From contig JAUICH010000001.1 of NCBI GenBank assembly GCA_030427505.1, forward strand, positions 682,001-746,000: a DNA stretch of 64,000 nt, read 5' to 3'. The notes below the pieces were generated by a model, which worked only from the letters and a program-made list of their open reading frames with translations, searched no databases and had not been told where the DNA came from. The number at the start of each line of letters is the position of its first letter. The first letter of the stretch is position 1. The stretch comes from Verrucomicrobiia bacterium. GTDB lineage: Bacteria > Verrucomicrobiota > Verrucomicrobiia > Verrucomicrobiales > DEV007. Of the stretch, positions 2,273-38,050 are shown in pieces. The translations under genes and the position numbers were made by a program.

Positions 2273-2995
2273 ATGAATCTCTCGAAATCTTACCTCTTAG
2301 GAGCCTGGGTCTTTGCTGGCCTGCTGTGCGTTTCCGCCCTTCAAGCCGGGGAATCGGTCTTGATTGATGAAACTTTCTCCGGCGAAGCACTCCCTCAAAA
2401 CTGGGAGCCCGGCGGCCGGAAGAATTCCTTTTCCATCGCCGACGGCGCGCTTCGCGGCGTGGCTGCGCCGGACGACCACCATGGCCCCTCCATCGGTGTT
2501 CCAATTACGGCTCACGATCTGACGCTGGAGTTTGACCTCAAGTTCGCCAAGCCCGGCTACTTCCTCTGTTTGATTGATGGCGATAGCCAGTTCAGCGGGC
2601 AGGCCCACCTGTTGCGCTTTTCAGCCGGTCCTACCCAAATTGGACTGGCACAAGATCGTGGGGACCCAGCCTCCAAGCTGGCTCAGAAAAAAGAGCGGGA
2701 CGCCAACGGAGGCAAAGCCATCCCGCCCACGCCGGAGCAACTGGCCGACCCGGCCTTTTACCGGGTGGAACGCCTGGCCAACCTTCCGGCCACGCCGGCG
2801 GATGGCACCTGGCACCACGTAAAAATCGAGCTGCGGGGCAATGCCGTGACCGCCAGCTTCGACGATCTTGAACCTCTCAGCGCCACCGGAACCGTGCTGG
2901 ATGTGGCGAAGTCCCGCTTCGTCATCCTCGTCGGGATGGAGGGCGACCTCTTGGTAGACAATGTGACGCTAACCAGCGTCAGTAGCTCTCATTGA
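2273..2995 (+). CDS. secreted protein with concanavalin-like (DUF1080-type) fold
   Basis: A 240-residue exported protein. I start it at ATG 2273 because that gives a clean signal peptide (MNLSKSYLLGAWVFAG..., cleavage after LQA). The 24 in-frame codons upstream lie inside the inverted-repeat element and are not credible. The pattern of LIDETFSG near the start, TLEFDLKF, GTWHHVKIELRG and LLVDNVTL at the end is that of laminin-G/concanavalin-like sheets found in 3-keto-disaccharide hydrolase (DUF1080) proteins. A role in binding or cleaving sugars outside the cytoplasm is an inference. It overlaps the convergent lipoprotein gene by 7 bp at its 3' end. Confidence 0.7.
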   Translation: MNLSKSYLLGAWVFAGLLCVSALQAGESVLIDETFSGEALPQNWEPGGRKNSFSIADGALRGVAAPDDHHGPSIGVPITAHDLTLEFDLKFAKPGYFLCLIDGDSQFSGQAHLLRFSAGPTQIGLAQDRGDPASKLAQKKERDANGGKAIPPTPEQLADPAFYRVERLANLPATPADGTWHHVKIELRGNAVTASFDDLEPLSATGTVLDVAKSRFVILVGMEGDLLVDNVTLTSVSSSH

Positions 2996-3435
2996 GCAAA
3001 CGCGCCCTGTTCTCCTGCTATCTCAATGAGTTGCTCAGCTACCTTGCTGGACGGAACGAATCCGTGTGGGTAAGAGTTTTTGTAAAAGGCTTTACCCTTA
3101 ACTTTCCCGGTTTTGGCATCCAGAAATGTGACGTTTAGCTTCCTTAGATACATGACGACATCCCACATCCAGGTGTCTTGGTATTTGACGATCAGTTTTG
3201 TGGAATTTTGGCTGCCAACCTCGGGATCAACGACTGTAAATCCGTGACTGCGCAGACCAGCCTGAAGCCCGGTTTTGCATCCTTCGTCTCCAGAAAAATC
3301 TTCGTCATCGATGACTCCGACGGTCGTGGGAGAAATTGGTTTTGGAAAGTCTGCCTGATAAGTTGGGCCGCAGCTCGCCACTACAAAAAGGGTGAGCAAA
3401 GGAAGGAGTCTCCAGATCATGCCCGGTGTTCGCAT
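2989..3435 (-). CDS. small lipoprotein of unknown function
   Basis: A 148-residue protein with a lipoprotein signal: a hydrophobic stretch LLPLLTLFVVASC with Cys at 22 as the lipidated residue. The mature part contains TVGVIDDEDFSGDEGC, KLIVKYQDTWMWDVVMYL and FLDAKTGKVKGKAFY. This resembles small lipoproteins whose short alpha/beta domain ends in a 'sum of gene/trait' strand pattern, but I do not recognise a named family. ATG 3435 is used; ATG 3420 (six codons in) is equally plausible. It lies 60 bp downstream of the phosphodiesterase gene on the same strand and may be cotranscribed. Confidence 0.6.
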   Translation of the reverse strand: MRTPGMIWRLLPLLTLFVVASCGPTYQADFPKPISPTTVGVIDDEDFSGDEGCKTGLQAGLRSHGFTVVDPEVGSQNSTKLIVKYQDTWMWDVVMYLRKLNVTFLDAKTGKVKGKAFYKNSYPHGFVPSSKVAEQLIEIAGEQGAFAQ

Positions 3436-3495
3436 AACGTAAAAAGAGATGCAACGAAAAACGGTCGGCTATTAGCCGGTTTGTTAGTATCGCTG

Positions 3496-4902
3496 CTACT
3501 CTCCAGTCAGGATCTCCTCTAGCACCCGTCCTTCCGCCGAAGGCATCTCCAGACCCAGGAGCGCCGCCATGGTGGGGGCCACATCCAGGTTGCTGACCTT
3601 TTCCAACACCACGCCCTTTTTGACTCCGGCCCCTGAGATTACGCAGGTGGCGCCCATGAGGGGGTGAGTGTGCAGGTAGCCGTGGGAGCCCTTCGGCCCG
3701 TCGGTCTCGGAAATGACCTCCTTACCGTCGTCTGATCCAGAAAACGAATAGCCGTCCGCGGCGCTGAGCATGAGGTCGGGCTCGCGCGGGTCGTCGGTGG
3801 GATCGCGGTGGCCCATGGCGGCGAAATCTTTGCGTTCGATCACGGCCTCCACGCCTTCCACCGTCTTGAACTTCTCCGCCAGCTTCTGGGCGATCTCGTC
3901 GCGATTGGCTTCGTCCAGGATGTAAACAAACGCGCCGCCTCCCTGGCCAAGGACATAAGCCTGCTGTTCCAGCTTCAGTCCCTGGCCGCTCCGCAGGCCC
4001 ATCTCGCGGAGCACGTTGTTCGCCGCGATCTGCTTGGTATAGGTGATGAACCCGTGGTCCGCGCAGATAAAAAAGGTCGTGCGGTCCCGCATGCCGGCGG
4101 CTTCCACGGCTTCCACCACCTGGCGGATGCGCTGGTCGCTGTCGTTGCAGGCCCAGTAGGCCTCGGGCGATTGGCGTCCGGTGGCGTGTTCCATGGCATC
4201 CACCGACACGAGGTGCAGGAGGAGGACGTTCGGCTTGTGAGTCGCGAGGACGTGCGAGGCAATGCTGCCATACATCCAGTCCCGCATGGCCTTGCCCTGG
4301 GTGCCGGCCTTGCACCATTCCATCTGGCGTTCGTAGGGAATGCCTTTGGCCTTCAGCTCCTCCAGCAGCGAGGGCGTGGAGGCGTCTTCCCACGTTTCCT
4401 GATCGAAGACATCCGGCACCTGCCAATCCAGTGTGGGAGCGCGGCGGGACGCCGGCCAGATGACCCCAGCGGTTTTCAGCCCCGCCTCATGCGCCACGTC
4501 GTAGATCGTGGGACTCGTGACAATCTCCACCTTGTCGAAGAGAGGATCGGGAATGAAGGGGACGGTTTTGAGCGTCTCGCGATCGAAGTAGTTGTTCCCG
4601 ATGACGCCGTGTTTTCCAGGTGTGACACCGGTCACCAGAGTGGTGTGGTTTGGCCATGTGACCGTGGGAAACGAGCACTCCATCGTCTTCGCCCGGGCGC
4701 CCTCCGCCGCCAGTTGGCGAATCGTGGGGATCTGCGCCTTCGGATCGTCAAAGTAGTAGTGAGCCAAGCCATCCACGCTGATGAGGATGACGGTGCGGTC
4801 CGTTTTCGGTTCGGCGCTGGACGTCCCAGGGAGGATGAAAGAGGCGAGGCAAGCCAGGGCCAGAAAGAGGATCGGGAGACGGAGTTTGAGTAGGTAAGCC
4901 AT
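3496..4902 (-). CDS. secreted alkaline phosphatase-superfamily nucleotide pyrophosphatase/phosphodiesterase (NPP-like)
   Basis: A 468-residue protein starting at ATG 4902, which opens a signal peptide (MAYLLKLRLPILFLALACLA..., cleavage near SSA-EP). Fifty upstream in-frame codons lack protein-like character and are excluded. Two-metal catalytic residues of the NPP branch are visible: Asp44 in ISVDG, the Thr82 nucleophile in PTVTWPNHTTLVTG, Asp235/His239 in SVDAMEHATG, Asp282/His283 in ADHG, and a late GSHGYLH. Family members hydrolyse phosphodiester or pyrophosphate bonds of nucleotides, or phosphonoacetate and lipid head groups. The export signal places it in the periplasm or outside. Exact substrate unknown. 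Confidence 0.85.
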   Translation of the reverse strand: MAYLLKLRLPILFLALACLASFILPGTSSAEPKTDRTVILISVDGLAHYYFDDPKAQIPTIRQLAAEGARAKTMECSFPTVTWPNHTTLVTGVTPGKHGVIGNNYFDRETLKTVPFIPDPLFDKVEIVTSPTIYDVAHEAGLKTAGVIWPASRRAPTLDWQVPDVFDQETWEDASTPSLLEELKAKGIPYERQMEWCKAGTQGKAMRDWMYGSIASHVLATHKPNVLLLHLVSVDAMEHATGRQSPEAYWACNDSDQRIRQVVEAVEAAGMRDRTTFFICADHGFITYTKQIAANNVLREMGLRSGQGLKLEQQAYVLGQGGGAFVYILDEANRDEIAQKLAEKFKTVEGVEAVIERKDFAAMGHRDPTDDPREPDLMLSAADGYSFSGSDDGKEVISETDGPKGSHGYLHTHPLMGATCVISGAGVKKGVVLEKVSNLDVAPTMAALLGLEMPSAEGRVLEEILTGE

Positions 4903-35806: not shown

Positions 35807-37297
35807 TTAAGCCAGGCGTTCCCAAAACGACTCCGCCGCAACGCGGTGCGCTCTCCGCTTCTCCGCGCCCATTTTATCCAGATTCCGCGCCATCATGGAA
35901 AGCCGGTGCTGGGACAGAAAGAAGTCCCGGTAGTCATCGATGAAAGACCAGAACAGCCCGTCCCAGGTGGCGCACCAGTCGCCGGAGGGATAGTCGCTCA
36001 TCTTGCGCACGTAGTTGGAGCCAGAGAGGTAGGGCTTCGTGGTGAAAAGGCCGCCGTCGGCGAACTGGCTCATGCCAAAGACATTTGGCACCATCACCCA
36101 GTCGTAGGCGTCCACGAACAGCTCCATGAACCAGTCGTAGACCCGGCGCGGATGAAAGCGGCAGAGCAGCATGAAGTTACCCAATATCATGAGCCGCTCG
36201 ATGTGGTGGCACCACCCGTGGTCCAGCGCGCGCCGGATGGCATCGTCCACCGGCGGAATGCCGGTGCTGCCATCGTAGAATGCCTTTGGAATGGGCTTGT
36301 CGTCAAAACCCCAGTGGTTCCCGTTCCGGGTCTCGAGGCCGTGGCGTTCGTACATGGCGCGCATGAACTCCCGCCAGCCGATAATCTGCCTGACAAACCC
36401 CTCCAGAGAAGCCAGCGGCACGTCATTCTCCGCCGCGAAAGCCAGGGCCCGATCCAATACTCCCTGCGGGGTTAGCAGGCCGAGGTTCAACATAGGCGTC
36501 AGCACACTGTGAAACAGCACCCGTTCCCGCCGGCTGATAGCGTCCTCATACGGCCCGAACTGGGCGAATCTTTGCTCCAGAAAATCTTCGAACCAGCGGT
36601 CGGCCGACTCATGAGACACGGGATAGCGAAAGGCCGCCGCGTCTCCGTGGTAGCCGGGGAAATGCCGTTTGGTGTAATCGATGGCTTCCCGCACGTAGGC
36701 GGTCTGTTGCGCCGCCGGATCGGGAGGCACCCGCAGGCCCTGCTTCGGCATCGGCTTGCGGTTCTCGTCATCAAAGCTCCACCGCCCGCCCACCGGTTTC
36801 CGGTTCTGGTCGACCAGTACGCCTAAGCGTAGACGTTGAGCTTCATAGAACGCCGCCATGAAAGGACGCTTCCGCTTTGCAAAATGCGCGTCCATCCAGT
36901 CTCCAGGTGTCAGAAACATCGGGGTGTCGTGTGCCACCGCTTTCACGCGATGGCTTTCAAAGAACGTTCGCAGGCGTTTTTCCAGGATGAAGTCCACCGG
37001 CTGGCAGTAGTGAAACTCGTCAAACCCCTCCCGTTGCAGAGCGCGCAGGTGTGTCGCCGCCGTCTTGTCTTTCTGAAAGTCCCGGTAGATCACCCGGTAG
37101 CCGCGCCGCTCCAGTTTCGCCGCATACGTTTTCATGGAGGCGCGGTGCAGCACCATCTTTTGCTGCTGAAACTTCAGCGGGTGATGGGGGTCGCCAAAGA
37201 TCAGCGAGTCTTCGATCAACGCCACCGCGCGATCCCGCGCCATCGCCGGGTGAGGATCGAACAACTGAAACGGAAAGACCAGCGTGACGGCGTTCAT
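35807..37297 (-). CDS. FeS-BCP-type cryptochrome/photolyase lacking most Fe-S cluster ligands
   Basis: A 496-residue member of the photolyase branch that includes Agrobacterium PhrB (6-4 photolyase). Family blocks are present: GWREFMRAMYE, HGWCHHIERLMILGNF and FGMSQFADGG with the FAD pocket, and SNYVRKMSDY. PhrB binds a [4Fe-4S] cluster through four Cys; here only Cys363 and Cys442 remain at matching places. The DYCxxC part of the loop is replaced by DYPSGDWC with a ~12-residue deletion. It lies 36 bp downstream of the SDR gene on the same strand, likely one operon. Light-driven DNA repair is the presumed role. Confidence 0.85.
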   Translation of the reverse strand: MNAVTLVFPFQLFDPHPAMARDRAVALIEDSLIFGDPHHPLKFQQQKMVLHRASMKTYAAKLERRGYRVIYRDFQKDKTAATHLRALQREGFDEFHYCQPVDFILEKRLRTFFESHRVKAVAHDTPMFLTPGDWMDAHFAKRKRPFMAAFYEAQRLRLGVLVDQNRKPVGGRWSFDDENRKPMPKQGLRVPPDPAAQQTAYVREAIDYTKRHFPGYHGDAAAFRYPVSHESADRWFEDFLEQRFAQFGPYEDAISRRERVLFHSVLTPMLNLGLLTPQGVLDRALAFAAENDVPLASLEGFVRQIIGWREFMRAMYERHGLETRNGNHWGFDDKPIPKAFYDGSTGIPPVDDAIRRALDHGWCHHIERLMILGNFMLLCRFHPRRVYDWFMELFVDAYDWVMVPNVFGMSQFADGGLFTTKPYLSGSNYVRKMSDYPSGDWCATWDGLFWSFIDDYRDFFLSQHRLSMMARNLDKMGAEKRRAHRVAAESFWERLA

Positions 37298-37333: not shown

Positions 37334-38050
37334 TCAGAACAGTCTCAGCGACGACAGACCGCCATCCATCTTGATCACCTGTCCCGTCATGAAGCGAGAC
37401 GCGTCACTCAGGAGAAAGTCCACCAGGCGGGCAAAGTCAGCCGGGTCACCGAGGGTCTTGGCGGGGTGCCGGTTTTTCGCGGCCTCCACTTTCTCGTTAG
37501 ATCCTAACAAACCGCTAGCCAGTGGGGTGTTTGTCAGAGAAGGCGCGATGACATTCACCCGGATGCGCGGCGCCAGCTCCGCGGCGAGAGACCGGCCCAG
37601 CCCTTCCACCGCTCCCTTGGCGGCGGCAATGCTGGCGTGAAAGGGCATGCCCGTCCGCACCGCCACAGTACTGAAGAGCACGATTGAGGCGGCTTCCGCT
37701 TTCTTCAAGGCCGGCAAGGCCGCGCGGATCAGGCGAACCGCGCCCAGCGCATTCACCTCGTAGTCTCTCAGAAAGTCAGCATCGGACAGACGGTGAAAAG
37801 GCTTCAACGTGATCGTTCCGGGGAAGTACACCAAGCCATCCAACGTCTCTGGAAGATCCAGCGAAACCTCTTCGCTCAAGGCGTCATACGCCTGAACCGA
37901 CACGTTTGCCAGGCCGGCCTGAGTTTCGCCCCCACGTACCGCGCACGTTACGTGGTTCCCATTTCCAGACAGTAGTTTCACGGTCTCCAGACCCATTCCA
38001 CTGTTGCCTCCAGCAATTAAGAAGTGTCTAAGAGTTGTCGAGATAGTCAC
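37334..38050 (-). CDS. SDR-family protein associated with photolyase, catalytic Tyr replaced
   Basis: A 238-residue Rossmann-fold short-chain dehydrogenase with nucleotide-binding LIAGGNSGMG, catalytic-type Ser127 in FSTVAV, C-terminal INVIAPSLTNTPLA-like block (read RVNVIAPSLTNTPLA) and ITGQV-like end (FMTGQVIKMDGG). The usual Tyr-x-x-x-Lys reads Ile141-Ala-Ala-Ala-Lys145, so the proton donor Tyr is missing. I recall close relatives encoded next to photolyases. Upstream gene of the pair with the photolyase-like gene. Confidence 0.85.
   Translation of the reverse strand: MTISTTLRHFLIAGGNSGMGLETVKLLSGNGNHVTCAVRGGETQAGLANVSVQAYDALSEEVSLDLPETLDGLVYFPGTITLKPFHRLSDADFLRDYEVNALGAVRLIRAALPALKKAEAASIVLFSTVAVRTGMPFHASIAAAKGAVEGLGRSLAAELAPRIRVNVIAPSLTNTPLASGLLGSNEKVEAAKNRHPAKTLGDPADFARLVDFLLSDASRFMTGQVIKMDGGLSSLRLF

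Follow-up and report, generated by a model that had tools for sequence, protein, structure and literature searches.

A probable (6-4) photolyase on the PhrB scaffold without the cysteines of the [4Fe-4S] cluster

Introduction

Can a photolyase of the PhrB type work without its [4Fe-4S] cluster, and if so, was the cluster lost or never present? We address this question at a locus within a 64,000-nucleotide stretch of bacterial DNA (the window), where a PhrB-like gene appeared to lack part of the cluster site. The role of the cluster was still called unclear or elusive in 2025; it lies about 18 Å from FAD, and electron transfer is given as negligible (PMC12082625). A structural role has been proposed because Cys mutants of PhrB were not expressed or were insoluble, and for the same reason the cluster could not be removed from PhrB (PMC4619345). 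Homologs without the cysteines were already on record: they made up 7% of 464 PhrB homologs in 2015 (PMC4619345), and they include cyanobacterial Phr2 (PMC9426592) and subgroup M, a set of cluster-free prokaryotic (6-4) photolyases comprising 20 of 110 sequences, among them PromaPL of Prochlorococcus marinus (PMC9178010).

Methods

Homologs were collected by family searches in four phylum samples: the window's own phylum (288 genomes, 49 with a match), the phylum of the Chitinophagaceae MAG L058 (198 genomes, 65 with a match), that of Acanthopleuribacter, L057 (149 genomes, 9 with a match), and that of the Pirellula MAG L062 (149 genomes, 24 with a match). We added 15 named loci, five viral contigs, seven plasmid loci and two PDB sequences; for cyanobacteria, Pseudomonadota and haloarchaea, sampling was confined to plasmid records, viral contigs and the two PDB sequences. 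Six duplicate loci (L001, L066, L152, L114, L080 and L168) were left out before counting, as were second-photolyase loci scoring below 150 bits in their best match to the A1 profile. Of 173 aligned rows, 172 were counted; L170 was dropped as truncated, with no residues at the ligand columns.

Ligand positions were taken from the Caulobacter enzyme 9hnk (C349, C437, C440 and C453), where the cysteine pattern identified them; PMC12082625 names C440 as a cluster ligand. Three trees were built: a 117-row tree (of the 172; 50 cluster-free) by a quick method on an alignment stripped of the ligand and loop columns, a rooted 67-row tree combining 59 of the 172 rows with 8 of 16 class-I/III-type photolyase outgroup rows, and a loop-length tree of 58 rows and nine new planctomycete rows.

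Results

An intact gene for a PhrB-like protein

The gene under study is an intact open reading frame from ATG to stop.

35807..37297, minus strand: predicted cluster-free PF04244-type (6-4) photolyase, 496 aa (open reading frame, Pfam, PDB relatives, AlphaFold2 model)

PF04244 (DPRP) matches residues 6-225 with 173.3 bits (E 8.9e-51, cut-off 22.1) and PF03441 matches weakly (35.6 bits, cut-off 27), so that the protein combines PF04244 with a photolyase FAD domain, as PhrB-like prokaryotic (6-4) photolyases do. A search against NCBIfam gave weak matches alone, all far under cut-off. Nine PDB sequences matched, namely (6-4) photolyases of the FeS-BCP type and, far more weakly, 4u63, another DNA photolyase. 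The AlphaFold2 model has a pLDDT of 93.6. Its ten best VIA-align rows all belong to the PhrB-like group (Z 42.0-45.2, with 45.2 to 8ijy and 44.7 to 4dja), and the first photolyase outside the group scores 28.2. The original prediction of a PhrB-type scaffold is thus borne out by the PF04244 match and by the model's best PDB matches, all of them FeS-BCPs.

The host genome (6.4 Mb, 96.5% complete) has this single PF04244 gene. The closest named relatives (L050-L055) are six Verrucomicrobiales/Verrucomicrobiaceae MAGs with 59-67% identity, and the 67% identity to L050 extends across all 496 residues.

Loss of all four ligands and shortening of the loop

The cluster-loop region of the window protein, KMSDYPSGDWCATWDGLFW, differs from the FeS-BCP stretch at the same place. 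At the four ligand positions of 9hnk the alignment places P349, a gap, a second gap and A443; none of the four ligands is left, and the protein lacks the four conserved [4Fe-4S] cysteines that define an FeS-BCP.

36251..36253, minus strand: Pro349 at the first-ligand position, PhrB Cys350 (alignment to 9hnk)
35960..35995, minus strand: shortened cluster loop, residues 435-446, DYPSGDWCATWD, at the place of three of the four ligand Cys (alignment, loop 13 vs 23)
36209..36211, minus strand: Cys363, not a ligand homolog; Ala, Ser, Thr, Gly, Asn or Met in cluster-bearing rows (alignments)
35972..35974, minus strand: Cys442, adjacent to the last ligand column; cluster-bearing rows have no Cys at its position (alignments)

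From Tyr to Leu the loop counts 13 residues, against 23 in each of the 20 cluster-bearing rows selected for the alignment of 58 plus nine planctomycete rows, so that exactly 10 are missing. The loop shortening proposed at the outset is confirmed, at 10 residues rather than about a dozen. The accompanying proposal that Cys363 and Cys442 are kept ligands, with two of four lost, did not hold: none of 114 cluster-bearing rows has Cys at either column, which rules both out as retained ligands, and the number lost is four.

The 172 rows divide into 114 with all four cysteines, 58 with none and 0 with one to three. The loss recurs in 57 further rows and so is not explained by chance or a sequencing error. 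The loop is 13 residues long in 55/58 cluster-free rows; the first-ligand position holds Pro in 56/58 of them and Cys in all 114 cluster-bearing rows. By sample, cluster-free rows number 16/49 in the window's own phylum, 22/64 in the L058 phylum, 1/8 in the L057 phylum and 2/22 in the L062 phylum; owing to the removal of duplicates, a few genomes appear through other loci. An additional search in planctomycetes matched 86/392 genomes, some matches being partial or to other photolyases; the 30 matches examined (19 with all four cysteines, 11 with none) repeat five counted genomes and were kept out of the 172.

Thirteen cluster-bearing rows (L155, L164, L165, L169 and L171-L179), mainly planctomycete, have an 18-residue loop instead of 23, and those on the tree group together on a long branch.

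In the cluster-free rows the vicinity of the former site carries its own conserved residues, Trp441 (57/58), Trp445 (56/58) and Asp446 (56/58), and residues 441-446 lie within helix 440-455 of the AlphaFold2 model.

35963..35977, minus strand: Trp441...Trp445, two aromatic residues characteristic of the cluster-free clade (conservation; predicted helix 440-455)

Conservation and model suggest that the start of this aromatic helix fills the space left by the cluster. The roof subdomain, stapled by the cluster in PhrB, would here be closed by the 10-residue-shorter loop, the Trp441/Trp445 helix and Pro349.

Conservation of the (6-4) repair residues

His365, Leu369, Met409, Tyr423, Tyr429, Asp176 and Asp252 are identical in 58/58 cluster-free rows. 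They correspond, in this order, to His366, Leu370, Met410, Tyr424, Tyr430, Asp179 and Asp254 of PhrB, the last two of which we take to hold Mg2+. The set expected of a PhrB-like (6-4) enzyme (His366, Tyr424, Tyr430 and the Mg2+ aspartates) is thus present in the window protein and in all 58 rows.

36203..36205, minus strand: His365, the catalytic His366 of PhrB (His in 58/58 and 114/114 rows)
36029..36031, minus strand: Tyr423, the lesion-binding Tyr424 of PhrB (invariant, 172/172 rows)

The roles of His366 and Tyr424 are described in PMC4619345, where H366N and Y424F abolish repair, Y430F leaves 30% and Y460F repairs normally; Phe449 of the window protein stands at the Tyr460 position. What PMC12082625 says of D178/D253 in the Caulobacter protein supports the Mg2+ role. 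All lesion-binding and catalytic residues that were checked are conserved, and the idea of altered DNA binding raised in the original prediction finds no support.

CPD enzymes have Asn in place of the catalytic His (PMC4619345). A motif search found this Asn in 13/16 outgroup rows (two had no motif match, and L078 matched elsewhere). The host also has a class-I/III-type photolyase, L065, with Asn at this place, so that CPD repair is probably covered; a PF00875 photolyase likewise occurs in 13/13 genomes examined, which cover 13 of the 15 loci L050-L064. Given the kept (6-4) residues and the Asn-type second enzyme, the window protein is most likely a (6-4) photolyase beside a CPD photolyase.

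By analogy with PhrB and the Caulobacter work, FADH- in the photolyase pocket would be excited directly or via an antenna and would donate an electron to a (6-4) lesion held by Tyr423 and Tyr429, with His365 as the putative proton donor and Asp176 and Asp252 presumably holding Mg2+.

Changes around the flavin and in the antenna pocket

Compared with PhrB, the electron chain has Tyr341 for Trp342 and Phe390 for Tyr391, with Trp389 kept. Beside the flavin, Met is found in 58/58 cluster-free and 5/114 cluster-bearing rows.

36092..36094, minus strand: Met402, next to FAD N5 (Glu403 in PhrB, Met399 in SePhrB; alignment)

Different electron properties, also suggested earlier for this protein, are possible in view of Tyr341, Phe390 and Met402 in place of Trp342, Tyr391 and Glu403. 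A Met-flavin N5 adduct has been discussed for SePhrB (PMC9178010), and the title of PDB entry 8ijy speaks of covalently linked FAD; a literature search on covalently linked FAD found no paper.

37262..37276, minus strand: residues 8-12, FPFQL in place of LGDQL, antenna pocket wall (alignment)
37145..37147, minus strand: His51, where PhrB has Ile51 in the apolar floor of the antenna pocket (His in 53/58 cluster-free rows)

Gly9, Asp10 and Ile51 of PhrB are among the antenna contacts, and the subgroup M pattern is described as complex (PMC9178010). At residue 9 we find Pro in 56/58 cluster-free rows and Gly in 74/112 cluster-bearing ones; at residue 10, His in 48/58 (Phe in the window protein) and Asp in 110/112; at residue 51, where most cluster-bearing rows are apolar, His in 53/58. 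A DMRL-binding antenna, as in subgroups A and G, was defined by PhrB Leu8, Gly9, Asp10, Glu33, Lys47 and Met55 with an apolar floor (Ile51). The window protein keeps E29, K47 and M55 and has F8-P9-F10 and His51 elsewhere, and so departs from this type. An 8-HDF antenna is unlikely in this host, because no CofH scored above the curated cut-off in its genome (best 33.6 bits vs 374.1).

A single cluster-free clade

In the 117-row tree the ligand state changes once, the 50 cluster-free rows forming one side of a single branch. When rooted, 22 cluster-free rows form one clade (100/100) nested in 37 cluster-bearing rows; in the 67-row rooted set the cluster-bearing rows fall on one side of a branch in 0/200 bootstrap trees, and forcing them into one clade costs 8.9 log units (p-AU 0.032). 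The nearest cluster-bearing branch, L031/L032/L034, belongs to the window's own phylum (support 95/70, not starred) and shares with 58/58 cluster-free rows the Met at FAD N5. Mapping ligand presence onto the phylogeny, the check proposed with the original prediction, therefore supports its derived cluster-free lineage: one state change, and a clade nested in cluster-bearing rows. Because of this nesting and the AU result, one derived loss is favoured as the better reading of the sequences; the alternative is rejected only modestly, in a tree with a long outgroup branch.

Three planctomycete cluster-free photolyases, L161, L221 and L202, have longer loops (23, 18 and 14 residues) without ligand Cys. 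L161 looked basal in the first rooted tree, and gradual erosion of the loop was considered and rejected: all three group with 13-residue loops, and the first branch of that group, L216, has 13 residues. Re-lengthening is therefore as likely as a remnant, and we claim no series.

One type per genome, and the gene neighbourhood

Exactly one PF04244 match occurs per genome in 147/147 matching genomes of the four phylum samples. Both types together were found in 0 genomes, where independence would predict 1.83 in the window's own phylum (P 0.13, not significant) and 4.88 in the L058 phylum (P 0.003), figures that ignore shared ancestry. This one-type-per-genome pattern is as for interchangeable enzymes.

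37334..38050, minus strand: SDR-family oxidoreductase upstream of the photolyase, 36 nt before its start; may be transcribed with it (neighbourhood)

In L055 a 58%-identical SDR homolog directly precedes the photolyase. Among 17 loci searched, such a homolog was near the photolyase only in L055 and, weakly, L058; the link is therefore not general.

Other neighbourhoods differ. In Bacteroidota, L061 (6001-10760; L060 has the same arrangement) carries, after the cluster-free photolyase, a flavin reductase, a DUF2805 gene, a 363-aa protein with the photolyase FAD domain alone, which we take to be short-photolyase-like, and a DUF2867 epimerase-like protein; this gene run is likely a photorepair operon. 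L185 has a flavin reductase directly upstream of its photolyase. At L059 (4483-8930) three photolyase genes follow one another on the same strand, with one PF00875/PF03441 gene on either side of the cluster-free PF04244 gene. On an 83-kb putative viral contig (L184, IMGVR_UViG_3300016474_001053, 2992-4413) a cluster-free PF04244 photolyase precedes a NUDIX protein, with a DHFR/thymidylate-synthase fusion nearby on the other strand. A phage origin of the photolyase was considered and dismissed, with no match among 50,697 phage records; five viral contigs matched, of which L184 is cluster-free.

Discussion

We identified in the window a protein that is, with a probability of roughly 85%, a functional cluster-free (6-4) photolyase on the PhrB scaffold whose clade ancestor lost the [4Fe-4S] cluster, as judged from alignments and the predicted model. 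A decaying or misassembled gene has practically no probability: the frame is open at full length, identity to L050 runs through the whole protein, and the 13-residue loop is common to 55/58 cluster-free rows. It is also very improbable that other Cys or His residues still hold a cluster or metal. With four Cys in all (98, 363, 379 and 442) and 21 His, the window protein might offer such a site, but Cys442 alone is common to it and its six closest named relatives, and the best Cys columns of the clade reach only 45/58, 31/58 and 29/58. Moreover, 31/58 cluster-free proteins have fewer than four Cys, and L059 has one in its whole length, so that a four-Cys cluster is impossible there.

A different function, CPD repair or cryptochrome-like light sensing in place of (6-4) repair, appears unlikely. 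CPD repair has been proposed for picocyanobacterial Phr2 on the ground that the cluster is missing (PMC9426592), and the antenna pocket and electron chain do differ from PhrB. Nevertheless, His365 and Tyr423 are invariant and their PhrB counterparts essential for (6-4) repair (PMC4619345), the Asn typical of CPD enzymes is found in the host's other photolyase, and cluster-free PromaPL is classed as a prokaryotic 6-4 photolyase (PMC9178010). As to descent, the cluster-free state might be ancestral, with FeS-BCPs having gained the cluster and the window protein being a relic. The very long outgroup branch (3.41 each side of the root) can pull the rooting, and the cost of a single cluster-bearing clade, 8.9 log units at p-AU 0.032, is small. 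However, no bootstrap tree of 200 separated the cluster-bearing rows, the Met402 universal in the clade occurs in only five of them, three being the nearest branch (L031, L032 and L034), and a cluster is reported at the equivalent place in primase PriL (PMC4619345). We regard an ancestral cluster-free state as rather improbable.

Beyond the loss of the cluster in the clade ancestor, cluster loss, the aromatic-helix plug, the FPHQL and His51 pocket and the universal Met402 may together mark the clade as a separately rewired photorepair enzyme, a tentative and doubtful reading. If it were true, these enzymes would have a different antenna or none, and their flavin would be kept active through Met. 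A natural cluster-free clade with intact catalytic residues, about a third of the homologs (58/172), makes the role of the cluster testable on stable proteins and favours a structural over an electronic role.

In the main-text passages of the cited papers that we consulted, we found no tested rooted placement, no wider sample showing the all-or-none pattern, no antenna-pocket signature for the clade and no one-type-per-genome exclusivity. A literature search combining cluster-free or FeS-BCP photolyases with Verrucomicrobia also found none.

By its sequence, the window protein belongs to an already published cluster-free lineage, subgroup M, whose definition (a PhrB-group homolog without the four cysteines; PMC9178010) it matches; the assignment is set by this definition. 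The likeness lies in the same scaffold, the missing cluster cysteines, a frequent Met near FAD N5 and the want of an intact Trp/Tyr chain of the RsCryB type. In contrast, the host of the window is most likely a member of Verrucomicrobiales, and the cluster-free rows here largely share one antenna signature where the published pattern is called complex. PromaPL itself stems, reportedly, from work by Ma et al. (2019, FEBS J). With Agrobacterium fabrum PhrB (4dja) the protein shares the fold (Z 44.7, rmsd 1.9 over 485 residues), the catalytic His, the counterparts of Tyr424 and Tyr430, and the Mg2+ Asp pair, whereas it differs from this FeS-BCP in lacking the ligands, in a loop 10 residues shorter, in an altered antenna pocket and electron chain, and in having only 30% identity. 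Synechococcus elongatus SePhrB (8ijy) gives the highest Z, 45.2, tied with the next rows, and likewise has Met at FAD N5; unlike the window protein, it has the four Cys, and it has 8-HDF, an antenna that is unlikely for the window protein.
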